A stretch of 6,044 bases of DNA, from contig JACVJG010000204.1 in the NCBI GenBank assembly GCA_015711875.1, positions 1 through 6,044 on the forward strand. Reading direction: 5' to 3'. Below the pieces are notes generated by a model. It ran no database searches and had not been told where the DNA came from. It saw only the letters and a program-made list of their open reading frames with translations. Numbering within the stretch: position 1 is the first letter of the stretch; each line of letters opens with the position of its first letter. Below, one piece after another: positions 1 through 6,044 of the stretch. The position numbers and the translations under genes are program-made. The stretch comes from Candidatus Solincola jinzensis. Lineage in GTDB: Bacteria; Actinomycetota; Geothermincolia; Geothermincolales; RBG-13-55-18.

Positions 1-2
1 TG

Positions 3-1307
3 GTGCTGGGCGGGGAGCGCCTGGAGGGCGTGGTGGTTCAGGCCTATCCGTACATGGACACCAACCTGCAGGTGGAGGTTCCGGGGGAGGGCTCCTGGGA
101 ATTCGAGCTGTCCATGGGACGCGCCCGCGAGCTCAGGGTGGCCTTCGGCCCCCGCCGCTCCGCCGTGGTGAGGTTCAAGGTGCCGAGGACGGCAAGGCCG
201 GGTGGAGATGCCAGAGAGGTCGGGCTGGCGGTACGCAGGGTCATGGCCCTCGCGGGGGGCTATGGACGCGAACTCGACCTCGGCAGAGGGTGGAGGGAGT
301 TTCTGGACACCGCGCAGGAATCCGCGCTCTCCAGCGTGCTGTGGGGCGTTTCGGAACAGAGGCCGGAACGTTCCTCCAGGCGCCACCGCTATGTGATGGG
401 TCCCCGCTCCCCGATGCTGGAGCGAAGGGCTATCGCCGCCGCCTCGCAGTACGACCTGGTGTTGGGAGCCATGGCGCCCATGGCCACTCTCGAACTGGCC
501 TGGCGTGCCGCCCAGGCGGCGGGCAGGCCCTTCGTGGCCCTCCCTCTCTTCCACACCCGCGACCCCAATCACTACTGGGCTCATTTCAAGAGGGCCATGC
601 AGGGAGCGGCGGGGGTGGAGGCCAACTCCGGCGTGGTGGAGGAGCTGATGAGGGGATGGGGATTCGCGGCCTTCGCCATCGGCCCCGGCTATGAGCTGGA
701 GGAATTCTCCTCGCCCCATATAGATGGGCGCAGGTTCAGGGAGGCTTTCGGGTTAGCGGACCGGCCCATGCTGCTGTGGGTGGGCAGGAAAAACGAATAT
801 AAAGGCTATCGCGACGCCATGGCCGCCCTTAGCCTGGTGAGGGAGAGGGCGCCCGAGGCGGTGCTGGTGATGATCGGCCCCGATGAGGACAACCTGCCCG
901 TGAGCCAGGAGGGGGTCTATTACCTGGGGGCGCAGCCCAGGAGCAACGTGCTGGACGCCTTCGATGCCTGTGACGCGCTTCTTTTCCCCTCCCTGCACGA
1001 GAGCTTCTGCCTGGTGTTCGGAGAGGCGTGGCTGAGGGGCAGGCCGGTGCTGGGAAACGCCTACTGCGCCGCGGCGCGCGGTATCATCGAGCACGGCGTG
1101 GACGGCTTCCTGTGCGGGGGCATCGAGGACTACGCACGGCGAGCCCTGGAGCTCATCGCGGATCCCGCCCTGGCCCGCCGTATGGGCCAGAGAGGAAGGG
1201 AGAAGATGCTCGCCACGCGGGGCTGGGATCTGCTGGTTGGGCGCCTGGAGGAGAAGCTGCAGGAGATGGTGGGCGAGGCGAAAGAGGCAAAGAGCGACGG
1301 GCGTTAA
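3..1307 (+). CDS. GT4-type (GT-B fold) glycosyltransferase with N-terminal beta-sandwich remnant, 5' partial
   Basis: This is a probable cytoplasmic glycosyltransferase that moves a sugar from a nucleotide-sugar donor to a glycan or lipid carrier; donor and acceptor cannot be read from sequence. The visible part is 434 codons ending in TAA. The C-terminal donor-binding half is clear: the VGRKNEYKG strand-loop (residues 260-268, with Arg262 and Lys267 in the usual phosphate-contacting places), then LFPSLHESFCLVFGEAW with the GT4 E-x7-E pair Glu333/Glu341, then the HGVDGFL loop near 365. Residues about 100-245 form the acceptor-side Rossmann half. Residues 1-85 are not part of GT-B: they are strand-rich and end in DAREVGLAVRRV, which resembles the end of a beta-sandwich module attached to some polysaccharide glycosyltransferases. 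A GTG lies at position 3, but the domain is already under way there, so the gene probably begins before the window. A promoter follows it, so the next gene need not depend on this transcript. Confidence 0.88.
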   Translation: MLGGERLEGVVVQAYPYMDTNLQVEVPGEGSWEFELSMGRARELRVAFGPRRSAVVRFKVPRTARPGGDAREVGLAVRRVMALAGGYGRELDLGRGWREFLDTAQESALSSVLWGVSEQRPERSSRRHRYVMGPRSPMLERRAIAAASQYDLVLGAMAPMATLELAWRAAQAAGRPFVALPLFHTRDPNHYWAHFKRAMQGAAGVEANSGVVEELMRGWGFAAFAIGPGYELEEFSSPHIDGRRFREAFGLADRPMLLWVGRKNEYKGYRDAMAALSLVRERAPEAVLVMIGPDEDNLPVSQEGVYYLGAQPRSNVLDAFDACDALLFPSLHESFCLVFGEAWLRGRPVLGNAYCAAARGIIEHGVDGFLCGGIEDYARRALELIADPALARRMGQRGREKMLATRGWDLLVGRLEEKLQEMVGEAKEAKSDGR

Positions 1308-1322
1308 GTCGGGTCGGTCCGC

Positions 1323-1350
1323 TTGAAGGGGAACCGGCGTCGCGTATAAT
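1323..1350 (+). promoter_or_regulatory. sigma70-like promoter for the secreted hydrolase gene
   Basis: A perfect TATAAT -10 box lies at 1345-1350 in otherwise GC-rich DNA, preceded by TTGAAG at 1323-1328 (4 of 6 matches to TTGACA) with a 16-bp spacer. Transcription would start near 1357 and leave a purine-rich leader of about 130 nt before the hydrolase ATG. It sits just after the stop of the upstream glycosyltransferase, so the hydrolase can be expressed on its own. No operator or riboswitch fold was recognised in the leader. Confidence 0.6.
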
Positions 1351-1426
1351 CGTCAAAGGAACAAGTCCGGAAAAGAGAGGAAACGTAGAGCCAGGAGTAG
1401 ATGAAGGCCGGCAAAGGGGCGTTTTC

Positions 1427-1471
1427 ATGTATATGAAGTTGAAGGCCTCTTGGGTGACGGTACGGCCATAA
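1427..1471 (+). other. possible 14-codon leader ORF (MYMKLKASWVTVRP)
   Basis: This short ORF starts with ATG, has AAAGGGG at 1413-1419 (7-nt spacer) and stops at TAA 17 nt before the hydrolase ATG, in a different frame. The well-placed ribosome binding site and position inside the leader would suit a translated leader peptide that couples or modulates translation. There is no run of a single amino acid that would point to classical attenuation. It is short enough to occur by chance. Confidence 0.2.
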
Positions 1472-1477
1472 GTGGAC

Positions 1478-1488
1478 AAAGGAGGGAC
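1478..1488 (+). promoter_or_regulatory. ribosome binding site that fixes the hydrolase start at 1489
   Basis: AAAGGAGG at 1478-1485 is a near-perfect Shine-Dalgarno sequence. The spacer to ATG 1489 is only 3 nt, shorter than usual. The in-frame TTG at 1450 is a worse choice: it would put 13 polar residues in front of an otherwise standard signal peptide. A TTG at 1507 has better spacing but would remove the positively charged n-region. Confidence 0.6.
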
Positions 1489-3606
1489 ATGATAAGGGAA
1501 CGCGCGTTGAGGAGTTTCCTCGCGGCCAGCCTGGCCGTGATGGTGCTGGTGTCGGTCGTGGCGGCGGTTATGGCGGAAAAAGGCGCGCTGGAGACCGCCT
1601 CCGCGGCGGGAGGGACCGCTGGCGGTGAGGGAACGCGGGCAGCGAGCGCCGCGGACATGACCATACTCGGCCTCGATACGCGTGATTATGCCAAGCGCAT
1701 GTCCAAACTCGTTCCCCTCTCCGACAGGCAATGGGTGCGCCATCACAAGATCGTGGTGAGGTGGAGCGACATCCACAGAGCGAAAAACTCCTTTGACTTC
1801 TCCTATTACGACAAGGAGATAAACGCGCGACTCGCGGACGGCACCCAGTCCCTGCTCATCCTCCTTCAGGGCCCCACGCCGGAATGGGCACGTGACCCCG
1901 CGTACGGTTCGTTCTCGCACAACGCACCGCCGCGCGACTGGGGCGACTGGTATGCCTTCTGCTCCAAGGTCGCCGAGAGATACGGCGGGGTGGTGGACTT
2001 CTATGAGATATGGAACGAGCCGGGATGGGACCAGGACGCCTACGCCTACAGGCAGTGGGGGGTTTACCATTTCGGGGGGCAGGTGGAGACGGACTACCTG
2101 CCCATGCTGCAGACAGCCTACGCGGCCATCAAGGAGAAAGACCCCTCGGGACAGGTGATGTGCGGAGCCCTCATCTACACCCTGGACCAGAACCCCAACA
2201 CGGGAGCCGACCTCACTTTGCAGCTCTACGATGAGGTCAACCGGCCCGGGCAGGACGTCTCCATGAAGGTGACCTCCAGCAAGCCCATCGTGGCCGAGCG
2301 CCCCATGTACTTCAATTACAAGGGAGCCTGGAACGGGGGACATGACGTGCTGGGCGCCACGGCGGCGGGCAAAGAATGGTTTTTCGCCGAGGGCACTACC
2401 CGCGACGGCTTTGAGGAATGGCTGTGCCTGCAGAACCCCAACCCGGTTCCCATCCAGGTGACCGCCACCTACATGTTCGGGCCAGGGCAGGGGGCCAACA
2501 TGGTCAAAACCTACGACCTGCAGCCCAGCTCGCGCACCACCCTCATGGTCAACAACGAGGTGGGAGCGGGGAAAGACGTCTCGGTGAGGATCACCTCGGC
2601 CTCCGACTTCATCGCCGAGCGCCCCATGTATTTCAACTACAACGGCGTGTGGACGGGCGGGCACGACGTGGTTGGCACCACGGCGGCGGGCAAGGAGTGG
2701 TTCTTCGCCGAGGGCACCACGCGCGAGAATTTCCACCAGTACCTCTGCCTGCAGAACCCCAACCCCGAGCCCATCGACGTCACCATGACCTTCATGTTCG
2801 GCCCCGGCCAGGGGGAGAACCGGGAGATGACCTTCCGCCTTGATCCCACCTCCCGCACCACCTTCAGGGTCAACGACCTGGTGGGCCAGGAAAAAGACGT
2901 CTCGGTGAGGATCACCTCGGCCTCCGACTTCATCGCCGAGCGCCCCATGTATTTCAACTACAACGGCGTGTGGACGGGCGGACACTGCGTGGTGGGGGCG
3001 GGGTCATCCGCGGACACCTGGTATTTCGCCGAGGGATGCACCGGCTTCTCCATCCAGCAGTACCTGTGCCTGCAGAACCCGCACCCGCAAGGGGTCACGG
3101 CGGAGATAACCTTCATGATGACCAAAGGCCAGGTGATCAAGAGAACGGTGGAGCTGGCGCCGAATTCCCGTACCACCTTCGACATCAACATGCTCATCGG
3201 CTTTCACGGCTCCTCGGACATGCTGGCCATACACCCATATAAGGATTTCTGGAAATGGGGGGAGCATTATGCCTATTTTGCAGCGCAGATGCGAGCTCAC
3301 AACATATGGCATGAGGTGGCGGTTACCGAGGTCGGCACCCCCAATCACGGAGACGATCCCAATTCGCCCTTCAACGAGAGTTTGCAGGCTGAGGCCATAG
3401 GATCGGTGGGAGTCGGGGGATTGTTAGGCGCCGGATGCAAAAAGATCTGGATCTACCGCGACATCGACGAGGAGCCTGGCACCTCATGGGACCATGTCTA
3501 TTACGGGCTTTTCAAGTACACTGGAGAGCCTCACCCGGCCTGGTTCGAATACGTGAAATGGCAACAGAAACTGCCGAGCTATCCCAACCTTCCTTCCAGT
3601 CTGTGA
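1489..3606 (+). CDS. Secreted clan GH-A (GH39-like) glycoside hydrolase with three repeat domains inserted in the TIM barrel
   Basis: The 705-residue product should be an exported retaining beta-glycosidase acting on a polysaccharide; its substrate is unknown. Residues 1-29 form a signal peptide (RERALR, hydrophobic core 10-28, V-M-A cleavage site), followed by an Ala/Gly-rich linker to about 56. The first half of a TIM barrel spans about 57-249: VRWSDI near 90-95, the LLILLQGPTPEWA strand at 122-134, FYEIWNEPGW with acid/base Glu177, and the strand QVMCGAL at 222-228. Three tandem repeats then occupy 250-565. The barrel resumes with SDMLAIHPY (576-584, His582 and Tyr584), AVTEVG with probable nucleophile Glu614, and strand KKIWIY (651-656). 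Without the repeats the catalytic core is about 327 residues, normal for a clan GH-A barrel. No sorting motif or C-terminal anchor is seen. It lies between glycosyltransferase genes, which suggests a role in exopolysaccharide trimming or release like PslG. The exact GH family is less certain than the clan; GH5-like is the main alternative. Confidence 0.85.
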   Translation: MIRERALRSFLAASLAVMVLVSVVAAVMAEKGALETASAAGGTAGGEGTRAASAADMTILGLDTRDYAKRMSKLVPLSDRQWVRHHKIVVRWSDIHRAKNSFDFSYYDKEINARLADGTQSLLILLQGPTPEWARDPAYGSFSHNAPPRDWGDWYAFCSKVAERYGGVVDFYEIWNEPGWDQDAYAYRQWGVYHFGGQVETDYLPMLQTAYAAIKEKDPSGQVMCGALIYTLDQNPNTGADLTLQLYDEVNRPGQDVSMKVTSSKPIVAERPMYFNYKGAWNGGHDVLGATAAGKEWFFAEGTTRDGFEEWLCLQNPNPVPIQVTATYMFGPGQGANMVKTYDLQPSSRTTLMVNNEVGAGKDVSVRITSASDFIAERPMYFNYNGVWTGGHDVVGTTAAGKEWFFAEGTTRENFHQYLCLQNPNPEPIDVTMTFMFGPGQGENREMTFRLDPTSRTTFRVNDLVGQEKDVSVRITSASDFIAERPMYFNYNGVWTGGHCVVGAGSSADTWYFAEGCTGFSIQQYLCLQNPHPQGVTAEITFMMTKGQVIKRTVELAPNSRTTFDINMLIGFHGSSDMLAIHPYKDFWKWGEHYAYFAAQMRAHNIWHEVAVTEVGTPNHGDDPNSPFNESLQAEAIGSVGVGGLLGAGCKKIWIYRDIDEEPGTSWDHVYYGLFKYTGEPHPAWFEYVKWQQKLPSYPNLPSSL
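2236..3183 (+). repeat. Three tandem 104-107-residue protein repeats inserted within the hydrolase barrel
   Basis: Units begin at V-N dipeptides: unit 1 at 2236 (residue 250), unit 2 at 2548 (354), unit 3 at 2869 (461); the next dipeptide, I-N at 3184 (566), closes the array. Shared marks in every unit are D-V-S, A-E-R-P-M-Y-F-N-Y, G-G-H, W-[FY]-F-A-E-G, L-C-L-Q-N-P and S-R-T-T. Register is exactly 321 bp through the central part; unit 1 is three residues shorter at its first loop and unit 3 two residues shorter before S-R-T-T. The alternating strand pattern suggests beta-sandwich modules, probably for binding or spacing at the cell surface. Function is not established; I recognise the motif from secreted actinobacterial-type proteins but cannot assign a Pfam name with confidence. 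Confidence 0.9.
2572..2981 (+). repeat. Pair of perfect 89-bp direct repeats (2572-2660 and 2893-2981)
   Basis: The two copies are base-for-base identical over 89 bp at a 321-bp offset, including every third codon position. They encode the D-V-S to G-G-H stretch of units 2 and 3 (residues 363-392 and 470-499 are identical). The same stretch in unit 1 has clearly diverged. Identity at silent positions suggests recent duplication or gene conversion between units 2 and 3. Confidence 0.93.
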
Positions 3607-3868
3607 GCGCTCGAACGTAGCGAAGCGGCTGTTGCCGGAAGATGCATGATAAGAACCCCCTGGCTCGAACGGGATCAGGGGGTTAAACATGGATGAAGCG
3701 GGAAAGGATGGGCGGCCATAAGGAGTTGAGCTGGCTTGATAGCCGTGATGGCGTGTTTGTCCGCTGGGAGAGAAGCCTTAAGACCAGGGTGTGACGGGGC
3801 CCATCATGTCCGGCGGTCCATTGATATGCGTTCGGGCGCGCAATCGTCGCTGGAAGCGGATGGGGGAT
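3607..3868. other. Intergenic region after the hydrolase
   Basis: Apart from the hairpin at 3654-3684, no convincing gene is seen on either strand. The 9-mer GCTCGAACG occurs twice, at 3609-3617 and in the hairpin loop at 3663-3671. No -10/-35 pair as good as the one at 1323-1350 was found, so how the downstream glycosyltransferase is transcribed is unclear. Confidence 0.5.
3654..3684 (+). terminator. Hairpin after the hydrolase gene, possible terminator
   Basis: AACCCCCTG (3654-3662) pairs perfectly with CAGGGGGTT (3676-3684) around a 13-nt loop, 48 nt after the hydrolase stop. The stem is strong, but only two T residues, which are themselves part of the stem, are followed by AAA, so there is no proper U-tract. 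It could be a factor-dependent terminator or an mRNA 3'-end stabiliser. Confidence 0.4.
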
Positions 3869-3988
3869 ATGGAATCGGCTGAGAAAAAATCCGGCGGCAT
3901 GGGCGGGATCGACGTCTCCACCGTCGTGATCGGCCTGAATCGCCCCCACCCCATGGCCATGGGCCTTTGCGAGGGGTGCGGGCGATGA
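3869..3988 (+). pseudogene. Short ORF, possible N-terminal stub of a GT2 glycosyltransferase
   Basis: From ATG 3869 the frame encodes 39 residues, stopping at a TGA that overlaps the ATG of the next gene (ATGA at 3985-3988). The middle, IDVSTVVIGLNR, reads like the first beta strand and loop of GT2-family transferases (VSVVI-x3-N-R); what follows (PHPMAMGLCEGCGR) does not. One explanation is that a deletion removed the body of a GT2 gene and left its start. It could instead be a small ORF translationally coupled to the downstream gene, or chance. The frame is also open upstream to a GTG at 3791. The match is short and made by eye. Confidence 0.25.
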
Positions 3989-5097
3989 GAGCGGCGATCT
4001 TCGCTGACCAGCTGTTCTACCGCCAGCCGGGAGGCATCGGGACCTACCTGCGACATCTGGTGCCGGGCCTTGCGGACTCGCCGGAAATCGACTCATTGGC
4101 GCTCGCCCATCATGGGCCGGAGGGCTCCCGCGCTTTTCGCGGCCTCACGAAGGTGGAGGAGGTACGCCTTCCCGGTCGGCGTGACCTCACGGGGCTATCA
4201 TGGCACCTTCTGGGTAAGCCCTGCCTTGAAAAGAGCCTCGGGCGCCTGGATGTGGTGCACACCCCCTCGCTGGTGTATACGCCATCAAACGCTCCCCTGG
4301 TGGCCACCGTGCACGATCTCTGCGTGCTCAAGATCCCCTGGGCTTTTCCCGCTCGCTGGAGGGCTTTCCATCGCCGCGGCTTGTCCCTGATAATGCGCCA
4401 TGCCCGGACCATCCTGGTGGACTCCCGGAGCACTCTTGAAGACCTGCGTTCACTTAACGGGGGCAAGGACCCCAGGGTAAGGGTGGTTCCCCTGGGGGTG
4501 GACACGCCTCCAGAGCCAAGCCCGGAAAAGGTGGCTATGACGCTGGAAAAGCACGGACTGCGGCCCGGCTACCTTCTCTTCGTGGGCACCATAGAGCCGC
4601 GCAAGAACCTCTCGCGCCTGGCGCTGGCGTACGCATCCTTTGCCGAGGAGGAGAGGAGGAGATGCGGTGAGCTGGTGCTGGTGGGGGCCTCAGGGTGGAT
4701 GGGAAGGCGGGAGCTGTCGCGTATCCTCTCCCAGAGGGGAGTGAGGTGGCTGGGCTATCTCCCCCAGGAGGAGCTGGAGGCGGTATACCGGGGCGCCTCG
4801 CTCTTCGTCTACCCCTCCCTTTACGAAGGGTTCGGCCTGCCGGTGCTCGAGGCCATGGCGAGAGGCCTGCCGGTGGTGACCTCCGACAGCTCCTCCCTGC
4901 GAGAGGTGGGAGAGGGCGTGGCCCTGCTGGTCGATCCCGGCGACGTCATGGAGCTGGGCAGGGCGATGCGTAGATTGTTGGACGACGAGGAGCTGCGCGA
5001 GGACCTGGCGCAAAGGGGCCGGGAACGGGCGGCCGAATACCGGTGGGAACGCACCGTGGAAATGACCCTGGAGGCATACAAAGGGGCGCTGGGTTGA
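3985..5097 (+). CDS. GT4 glycosyltransferase, MtfB/WbaZ-like (probable mannosyltransferase)
   Basis: The 370-residue product is a full-length cytoplasmic GT-B retaining transferase, probably adding a sugar to a lipid-linked glycan during surface polysaccharide assembly. The N-terminal half has the acceptor-side loop PGGIGTY (15-21), the VHTPSLVYTP strand region (91-100) and His110 in ATVHDL. The C-terminal donor half has LLFVGTIEPRKNL (197-209, Arg206/Lys207), LVLVGASGWMG (230-240) and YPSLYEGFGLPVLEAM with the E-x7-E pair Glu281/Glu289. The G-T-I-E-P-R-K-N and Y-E-G-F-G-L-P signature is typical of the MtfB/WbaZ/WbpY group, many of which use GDP-mannose; mannose specificity here is inference. 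ATG 3985 is chosen because the first strand MRAAIFADQ begins there and a GAGGGG lies about 9 nt upstream. An in-frame TTG at 3967 would add six residues with no benefit. Its start overlaps the stop of the preceding short ORF. It converges with the dehydrogenase gene downstream. Confidence 0.92.
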   Translation: MRAAIFADQLFYRQPGGIGTYLRHLVPGLADSPEIDSLALAHHGPEGSRAFRGLTKVEEVRLPGRRDLTGLSWHLLGKPCLEKSLGRLDVVHTPSLVYTPSNAPLVATVHDLCVLKIPWAFPARWRAFHRRGLSLIMRHARTILVDSRSTLEDLRSLNGGKDPRVRVVPLGVDTPPEPSPEKVAMTLEKHGLRPGYLLFVGTIEPRKNLSRLALAYASFAEEERRRCGELVLVGASGWMGRRELSRILSQRGVRWLGYLPQEELEAVYRGASLFVYPSLYEGFGLPVLEAMARGLPVVTSDSSSLREVGEGVALLVDPGDVMELGRAMRRLLDDEELREDLAQRGRERAAEYRWERTVEMTLEAYKGALG

Positions 5098-5428
5098 ACG
5101 GGCGGTCGCCGATAAGCCATTGACCCATCCCGCGATGGGAAAAAGGAGAATATACCATAATATACCAGTGCGCCCTGAGGGATTTCACCGCGCTTACCGT
5201 CGAAGCGACGGAATCGGCGGGATGCTTCCCGAACAAGCTGGCAAATGACAGAAACGATCGCCGCCGAGTCCGGGCCATCAGGTTCGACCCACAGCGCTGA
5301 TCGGGTTCCCCCGCATCACGGGTGAGGAAGAAGCGCGCCCTCTTGATCTCCGTTGGCCCGCGCCTTTTCGTCAAGGTCATTTTCAACCCGCCCCGCGACC
5401 CCTCCTGACTCCTCAGAAAGGCTTCAGT
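5098..5428. other. Convergent intergenic region without a clear gene
   Basis: These 331 bp separate two converging genes. They contain a small hairpin CCCATC/GATGGG (5124-5139) followed by five A residues on the plus strand, a second one CCGTCG/CGACGG with a 3-nt loop (5197-5211), and an AT-rich patch with AATATACCA twice (5149-5157, 5159-5167). Neither hairpin has a T-run on its 3' side in either direction, so no intrinsic terminator can be called. A minus-strand open frame from 5386 runs leftward into the glycosyltransferase; it is discussed in the findings and not called as a gene. Confidence 0.5.
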
Positions 5429-6044
5429 TCAGCGTCCCACGCCCTCGTAGTTGAAGCCGAGACGGCGTATGGAAAGAGGCTCCAGGCAGTTCCTGGTGTC
5501 GAGGATCTCGCGGCCTTTCATCACCTCGCCCACGCGCCGGAAATCCTGGAGCTTGAACTCGTCCCAGTCGGTGAGGATGAGCAGCAGGTCCGCGCCCTCC
5601 GCGGCCTCCAGGGCGCTGGCGGCGCAATCCAACCCGGGCATGGCCTCGCGCGCGTTCTCCATGGCCTGGGGGTCGTAGGCTTTGACCTCCGCGCCTCCCT
5701 CCAGTAGCATGCGGATTATCTCCAGGGCCGGGGAGTCCCTCACGTCGTCGGTGTTGGCCTTGAAGGCCAGGCCCCAGGCCGCTATGCGTTTTCCCCGCAA
5801 TCCCCCCAGGCGTCGCTCCGCCTTCCTGGCCATGAGCTCCATCTGCTCGCGGTTCACCTGCATGACCCCCTCCAGGAGGTAGAAACTGTAACCGGAGCGC
5901 CGGGCGATGTCGATCAGAGCCTGGCAGTCCTTGGGAAAACAGGAGCCCCCGAAGCCCGGACCGGAGCGCAGGAACTCGAACCCGATACGGCGGTCATAGC
6001 CCATGCCCATGGCCACTTCCTTGACGTCGGCGTCCACCGCCTCG
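5429..6044 (-). CDS. ugd: UDP-glucose 6-dehydrogenase family, C-terminal part (5' end beyond the window)
   Basis: This enzyme family oxidises UDP-glucose twice with NAD+ to UDP-glucuronate in the cytoplasm, supplying acidic sugar for surface polysaccharides. About 205 residues are visible, ending in TGA at 5431-5429. They begin in the middle of the protein with E-A-V-D-A-D-V-K-E-V-A, the helix before the active site. The catalytic loop GPGFGGSCFPKD is intact, its Cys encoded at 5939-5941 and Lys three residues later. It is followed by the dimer-forming helices, then the C-terminal UDP-binding Rossmann domain opening with KRIAAWGLAFKANTDDVRDSPA. Full members are about 430-450 residues, so roughly half is missing off the right edge. 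The GTG at 6037 is an internal valine, not a start. GDP-mannose or UDP-ManNAc dehydrogenases are related alternatives, but the F-K-x-N-T-D-D-x-R-x-S-P-A motif fits UDP-glucose dehydrogenase best. It points away from the right-hand neighbourhood toward the glycosyltransferases. Confidence 0.93.
   Translation of the reverse strand, partial: EAVDADVKEVAMGMGYDRRIGFEFLRSGPGFGGSCFPKDCQALIDIARRSGYSFYLLEGVMQVNREQMELMARKAERRLGGLRGKRIAAWGLAFKANTDDVRDSPALEIIRMLLEGGAEVKAYDPQAMENAREAMPGLDCAASALEAAEGADLLLILTDWDEFKLQDFRRVGEVMKGREILDTRNCLEPLSIRRLGFNYEGVGR

Follow-up and report, generated by a model that had tools for sequence, protein, structure and literature searches.

A predicted PslG-like glycosidase with a DUF5719-type repeat array at a fixed site in its barrel

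The window analysed here is a 6,044-nt stretch of Candidatus Solincola jinzensis (assembly GCA_015711875.1, contig JACVJG010000204.1, positions 1 to 6,044). It contains a complete gene lying between two glycosyltransferase genes, with part of a dehydrogenase gene on the opposite strand further downstream (Table 1). The complete gene encodes a protein in which a long repeat array interrupts a predicted (beta/alpha)8 (TIM) barrel, and which is referred to below as the barrel-array protein. As the initial annotation stated, Glu177 of a WNEPG motif and Glu614 of a TEVG motif share a single frame and lie 437 residues apart, as can be read directly from positions 1489-3606. It had also placed three tandem repeats between these residues; repeats are indeed present, but not as three whole copies, since the insert consists of a C-terminal half-unit (the head), two whole units and an N-terminal half-unit (the tail). 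The repeat block, given as residues 250-565 with 121 residues remaining, had to be moved to residues 251-571 (321 residues, or 3 x 107; window 2239-3201), so the spacing of the two glutamates without the insert is 437-321 = 116. The junctions had been assigned to positions after a helix and before strand 6, and at these places the structural model predicts a helix (241-247) and a strand (578-581). The initial observation is thus confirmed, and the interpretation drawn from it, a catalytic barrel split by an insert in the alpha5-beta6 loop, is supported.

Table 1. Features of the barrel-array gene and its neighbours in the 6,044-nt window
Feature	Position	Strand	Basis
Complete gene for a 705-aa clan GH-A/PslG-like protein containing the nested repeat array	1489..3606	+	single open frame
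Shine-Dalgarno-like AGGAGGG, just 5' of ATG 1489	1480..1486	+	sequence
N-terminal helix, residues 2-36	1489..1596	+	helix predicted; hydrophobicity by reading; putative signal peptide or anchor
Barrel, first part, residues 57-250	1657..2238	+	structure prediction and fold alignment
Glu177, putative acid/base (WNEP)	2017..2019	+	invariant in 61/61 rows; aligns with WNEP of PslG
Insert head, C-terminal half-unit, residues 251-296	2239..2376	+	half-unit comparison
Insert whole unit 1, residues 297-403, 107 aa	2377..2697	+	nucleotide repeats, TRF, half-unit comparison
Insert whole unit 2, residues 404-510, 107 aa	2698..3018	+	nucleotide repeats, TRF, Pfam, half-unit comparison
Insert tail, N-terminal half-unit of end-specific type, residues 511-571	3019..3201	+	half-unit comparison
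Barrel, second part, residues 572-705	3202..3603	+	structure prediction and fold alignment
HPY of strand 6 (H582 and Y584 invariant)	3232..3240	+	61-row alignment
Glu614, putative nucleophile (TEVG)	3328..3330	+	invariant in 61/61 rows
GT4 glycosyltransferase, upstream, extends to window start	3..1307	+	Pfam; context
GT4 glycosyltransferase, downstream	3967..5097	+	Pfam; context
UDP-glucose/GDP-mannose dehydrogenase, C-terminal part, cut by window end	5429..6043	-	Pfam and NCBIfam; context

In predicted models of both the window protein (residues 57-250 and 572-705) and a relative with a one-unit insert (P0043), the two barrel parts appear to form a single barrel, as had been proposed. A fold search with the window model aligned this barrel with 5bx9 and 5jvk, and a search with the P0043 model aligned its barrel with 2bfg; the 5bx9 and 5jvk matches (Z 26.7 and 26.3, respectively) are tied, as entries differing by Z < 1 were treated as equal. 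The model shows the features of clan GH-A, namely a (beta/alpha)8 barrel with a glutamate acid/base after strand 4 and a glutamate nucleophile on strand 7. Because this layout is common to the whole clan, it does not single out GH39; the GH39 profile (PF01229) fails to match the window protein and matches 2 of 61 family members, at best with 3.7e-4. The placement near PslG relies on the closest solved structure and on the polysaccharide-cluster context, both of which were found here. PslG of Pseudomonas aeruginosa (5bx9, 4zn2, 9g17), which we take to be a GH39 enzyme, is the closest fold, with 17% identity over the aligned residues; judged by its length and two-glutamate spacing it has no array in the alpha5-beta6 loop, and its Psl chemistry need not carry over. 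The protein is probably a PslG-like retaining glycosidase of clan GH-A that is exported.

A search with residues 57-255 returned 68 proteins, of which 63 (P0002-P0064) constitute one group and P0065-P0069 are remote. The window protein was aligned with 60 of these relatives, P0031, P0033 and P0059 being omitted as incomplete; the search behind these 61 rows admits proteins of 388-1234 aa only. N176, E177, H582, Y584 and E614 are invariant in the alignment. When more distant loci are included, Gln precedes the acid/base in 5 of 13 rows, while the Glu remains invariant throughout. The loci with this unusual change of the clan GH-A Asn, reading QEP and not NEP, are L010, L014, L018, L020 and L024.

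All 61 rows carry an insert at one site, between the consensus sequences LFDDV and IGFxGxCDMxAxHPY, with lengths of 102-107, 209-219, 320-342 or 422-449 residues. This agrees with the expectation that homologues would have the insert at the same place (60/60 aligned relatives). It also bears on whether a chimeric assembly fused a repeat gene with a glycosidase gene: repeats often cause misassembly and relatives have more than 100 repeat matches per genome, but all 60 relatives, which come from other records, have both junctions at this site and in frame, as do named genome contigs. Short of evidence from reads, these junctions refute a chimera, for which we see practically no chance.

The window repeat copies are in register with a spacing of 321 nt. 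The first two are 76% identical over 300 nt, blocks of 69-70 nt present in all three copies are 72-77% identical, and Tandem Repeats Finder (TRF) reports a period of 321 (score 914). DUF5719 (PF18986) matches the repeats with 46.9 bits against a gathering cut-off of 26.2, and is the sole Pfam family above its cut-off in the window protein; the NCBIfam BGTF surface domain was rejected, as it reached 18.4 bits, under its cut-off of 40. The ASRT profile (PF07100) does not match the window protein itself. Among the 61 family members, DUF5719 is found in 53 and ASRT in 19 at E ≤ 0.01. Searching the PDB by sequence with two repeats gave one chance-level match (E 2.2); the predicted window structure matches TM1070 (1nc7_B; TMt 0.79, root-mean-square deviation 1.9, 112 columns). 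Both whole units and the tail start with W(F/Y)FAEG and contain LCLQNP. According to the available part of PMC2739507, strand 1 of the ASRAH superfamily begins with a Trp and strand 2 ends with an Asn, and in the ASRT-like family a pocket Cys precedes this Asn by three residues; the window units share all three features (the Cys and Asn in LCLQN). By motif and model, the units appear to belong to the DUF5719/ASRAH kind of beta-sandwich. The same excerpt describes ASRAH domains as predicted sugar binders that occur in tetrads and in extracellular actinobacterial forms, and sugar binding by the units is likewise only a prediction. The phase of the domain is fixed by L138, a protein with a C-terminal array, in which the ASRT match, starting from profile position 6, begins with the opening W of a unit.

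With this phase, the insert begins with a C-half and ends with an N-half. We consider that the head and tail would pair as one circularly permuted DUF5719/ASRAH sandwich held in the alpha5-beta6 loop, its C-half leaving alpha5 and its N-half entering beta6, and that further whole units would be strung in tandem within the loop of this permuted domain. As a whole, the view that such a nested array is carried by an exported, PslG-like glycosidase encoded in an exopolysaccharide locus is given a probability of roughly two in three. Half-unit comparison in 48 proteins is consistent with specialised ends: the nearest neighbour of every tail is another tail (48/48) and that of every head another head (48/48, or 47/48 with trimming), while inner N-halves are nearest to inner N-halves in 114/114 and inner C-halves to inner C-halves in 111/114. 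Inner units are 70-72% alike within a protein and 47-50% between proteins. In P0006, inner units 2 and 3 hardly differ, which points to a recent tandem duplication.

The same beginning and end would be expected if the units were permuted serially, each domain being built from the C-half of one unit and the N-half of the next, so that head and tail never meet. Heads resemble the inner C-halves within their own protein almost as closely as they resemble heads elsewhere, which also suits this alternative. We nevertheless judge it quite improbable for four reasons. First, the three-unit model contains the unpermuted TM1070 match described above. Second, the ASRT match of L138 opens at the W of a unit. 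Third, the terminal arrays of L019 and L003 stop after a C-half. Fourth, head and tail are both end-specific by nearest neighbour. The P0043 model, with an insert of head and tail alone, does not separate the two possibilities because they coincide in a one-unit member.

Several points weigh against the view of a nested array as a whole. We infer both the pairing of head and tail and the position of the array in space. After trimming, head-head similarity between proteins is 60%, against 59% between heads and inner C-halves of the same protein, a weak contrast. Of the 74 filled proteins, the half-unit analysis covered 48, and six of the seven one-unit members are among the other 26. The join of the head to the next unit is modelled with low confidence in the window protein (predicted local distance difference test, pLDDT, 61-63 at 271-290). 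In P0043, pLDDT is 73-89 over 241-270 and 77-96 over 301-350, but 42-63 at 271-300, a range that takes in strand 1 of the N-half (289-299). A fold search with the P0043 model was uninformative: barrel chains fill the matches listed, and no ASRAH chain is among them. The second barrel part alone has no significant relative in the PDB by sequence (best E 0.28). Finally, as the search was limited to 388-1234 aa, 61/61 does not establish a universal insert, and 11 of 86 family rows are without one. The notion that the site is always filled, derived from the 61 rows, was rejected by the empty-site members L119, L120 and P0071-P0079.

The 86 family rows comprise 76 of the 79 rows of a first tree (three outgroup rows excluded) and ten added later. 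Rows with identical barrels were removed from the first tree and L138 and L140 were skipped, having no second-half match; the near-duplicates P0013/L127, P0019/L001 and P0075/P0077 were kept. Zero units are found in 11 rows, one in 7, two in 11, three in 24, four in 32 and five in 1. In L119 and L120, about eight residues connect the barrel parts and the glutamates are 118 residues apart; L119 lies in a genome (G019) that also holds a filled member, L101. The search with L119 found nine more empty-site members, P0071-P0079 (P0077 is a partial protein, and P0070, the record of the query itself, was not added to the final tree).

P0078 and P0079 fall within supported filled groups (12 rows, 100/97; 15 rows, 100/98). 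With the first 79 rows, a single clade of all filled rows could not be rejected (p 0.433), but it was rejected once P0078/P0079 and others had joined (approximately unbiased test, p 0.0019), an outcome that shifted with sampling and concerns a group named after the tree had been seen. Because P0078 and P0079 are nested in filled groups and one clade is rejected, the insert was cleanly lost on one or more occasions, or else was gained repeatedly. The nine empty rows that branch early (support 51/80) may represent either the ancestral state or another loss. The 89-row tree implies at least 26 changes in unit number and at least two between the filled and empty states. P0034, P0036, P0042, P0038 and their kin form a subclade with one or three unit lengths and diverged repeats, to which the insert-free P0078/P0079 are related.

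On the nested-array view, the unit count varies from 0 to 5 by addition or loss of whole units, and because units come and go whole, their number could change without disturbing the frame or the barrel. A further and tentative step, to which we give somewhat less than even odds, is that the alpha5-beta6 loop is an expansion slot closed by the permuted domain, in which recombination makes the nested array grow or shrink by whole units (0-5) and copy number tunes reach or avidity while catalysis is insulated. Such frequent change, the empty members inside a filled group and the neighbouring subclade with diverged repeats would also be expected if the array were a passive spacer or neutral decoration whose number drifts and which tethers nothing. 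We consider this rather unlikely: 75 of the 86 family rows contain an insert (although sampling favours longer proteins), and the W(F/Y)FAEG and LCLQNP motifs are retained in the units of the window protein.

The surroundings of the gene suggest a possible role. In the related locus L019, the order by Pfam is GT2, GT4, barrel-array gene, GT4 and UDP-glucose dehydrogenase; L005 and L008 resemble it, judged by protein starts only, and in L018, which is more distant, a polysaccharide flippase-type gene lies some 8 kb from the barrel-array gene. In TIM barrels, the loops that join a helix to the following strand are found on the side opposite the active site. The barrel probably clips or trims a surface polysaccharide that the neighbouring glycosyltransferases would produce. 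The array, on the opposite face, would bind that polymer or another wall glycan and so keep the enzyme at the surface. As far as the available text of PMC9075953 goes, PslG activity plays an important part in making Psl; when it is lost, Psl remains at septa and the cells stay in chains. By analogy, the barrel-array protein might have a PslG-like role in its own locus. We infer the substrate proposed here, however, and the barrel could instead act outside polysaccharide biosynthesis by degrading foreign or spent glycans. Of the 89 sequences in the set behind the first tree, 19 fit a loose lipobox-like pattern (with no chance control), so some members may be surface lipoproteins. This alternative appears fairly improbable given the glycosyltransferase and dehydrogenase neighbours in L019, L005 and L008, and given that PslG, the closest fold, is encoded by a gene transcribed together with psl genes according to the same excerpt of PMC9075953.

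Tandem beta-sandwiches inside a glycosidase barrel are already known from the GH10 xylanases Xyn10C/Pm25, where the interruption is likewise conserved in relatives (PMC7848910). As far as the portion of that source available to us describes, these differ in having two whole CBM4 domains in the beta3-alpha3 loop, with neither a permuted outer domain nor a 0-5 series. Nested insertions of the form A1-B1-C-B2-A2 are also known and are host-in-host, as proposed here; in the excerpt of PMC13114784, C is a separate domain, whereas in the barrel-array protein C would be a variable tandem array of the family of B. The available part of PMC2739507 describes no ASRT/ASRAH domain inside a catalytic barrel and none that is permuted. 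Our literature search found DUF5719 in no paper and, among titles and abstract openings, no description of this arrangement. We take to be new the fixed alpha5-beta6 slot closed by a permuted domain, the range of 0-5 unit lengths and the empty members nested in a filled group. This natural series of 0, 1, 2, 3, 4 and 5 unit lengths offers a way to ask how a barrel can fold despite an insert that exceeds its own length. It bears on how circular permutation may allow a tandem array inside another domain, and on whether such arrays steer an exopolysaccharide glycosidase, with the empty-slot and one-unit members as ready-made controls. It also places a predicted sugar-binding module of unassigned ligand beside a candidate polysaccharide. 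If the slot proposal is true, modules come and go in a little-known bacterial group without breaking the enzyme.

The same two domain kinds also occur in the more usual order. L137, L138, L139, L140 and L141 are GH39-type proteins with an uninterrupted barrel and a C-terminal array; L138 matches Pfam GH39 (6.9e-9) and the others were assigned by reading. L137, L139 and L141 are separated from the barrel-array family by a long branch. As these proteins come from genomes that also hold filled members (G001, G003, G005 and G006), the common arrangement coexists with the inserted one. A two-unit repeat query, for which 150 candidates were scored per genome so that counts are lower bounds, gave at least 128, 133, 143 and 106 matches in G001, G003, G005 and G031 (order not assigned). 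Among 21 repeat-bearing frames in 20 stretches of one genome, chosen from high-scoring matches and not at random, the array is C-terminal in 16 and has four units in 17; four units are present in 15 of the 16 C-terminal arrays examined, which fits the tetrads mentioned in the excerpt of PMC2739507. Nine loci (L001, L004, L005, L007, L008, L009, L017, L019 and L022) have a second repeat-bearing frame upstream on the opposite strand. In L019 (3007-5709) it encodes an FG-GAP protein with C-terminal repeats, and in L007 it is divided between two frames.

Of the 31 genomes in the class that includes G001, from which L019 comes, 27 have a match to the first barrel part (1e-20). Among 396 genomes drawn from the phylum, 29 have a match, the two outside this class (G100 and G305) being weak. 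Named records with relatives include Candidatus Solincola and Candidatus Geothermincola. The L018 record is titled Acidimicrobium ferrooxidans, but G005, the genome it belongs to, is assigned to the same class as G001, so the title is probably misassigned. Among viral contigs, three stretches fit a pattern and none is a relative. Within the window, Rfam gave 0 matches, and promoter and terminator scans of 1200-4100 gave one each, not above shuffled sequence. G+C content is about 0.55-0.57 across window 3001-3750 (second barrel part), compared with 0.61-0.64 before it.

Other proteins of G001 carry repeats away from the C-terminus. The product of L181:3107-8821, a 1905-aa protein resembling multicopper oxidases (Pfam Cu-oxidase_2), is a further enzyme whose array is internal: four DUF5719 units follow the stretch DPNATPHYFGPYPNYALSPLPE, and a second internal block consists of GGSGYTSPPTV-like repeats. 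L176:1347-3638 and L187:2007-4259 have four and five DUF5719-type units, respectively, near the N-terminus, preceding a PGA_cap (CapA) domain in L176 and an M28 peptidase in L187.
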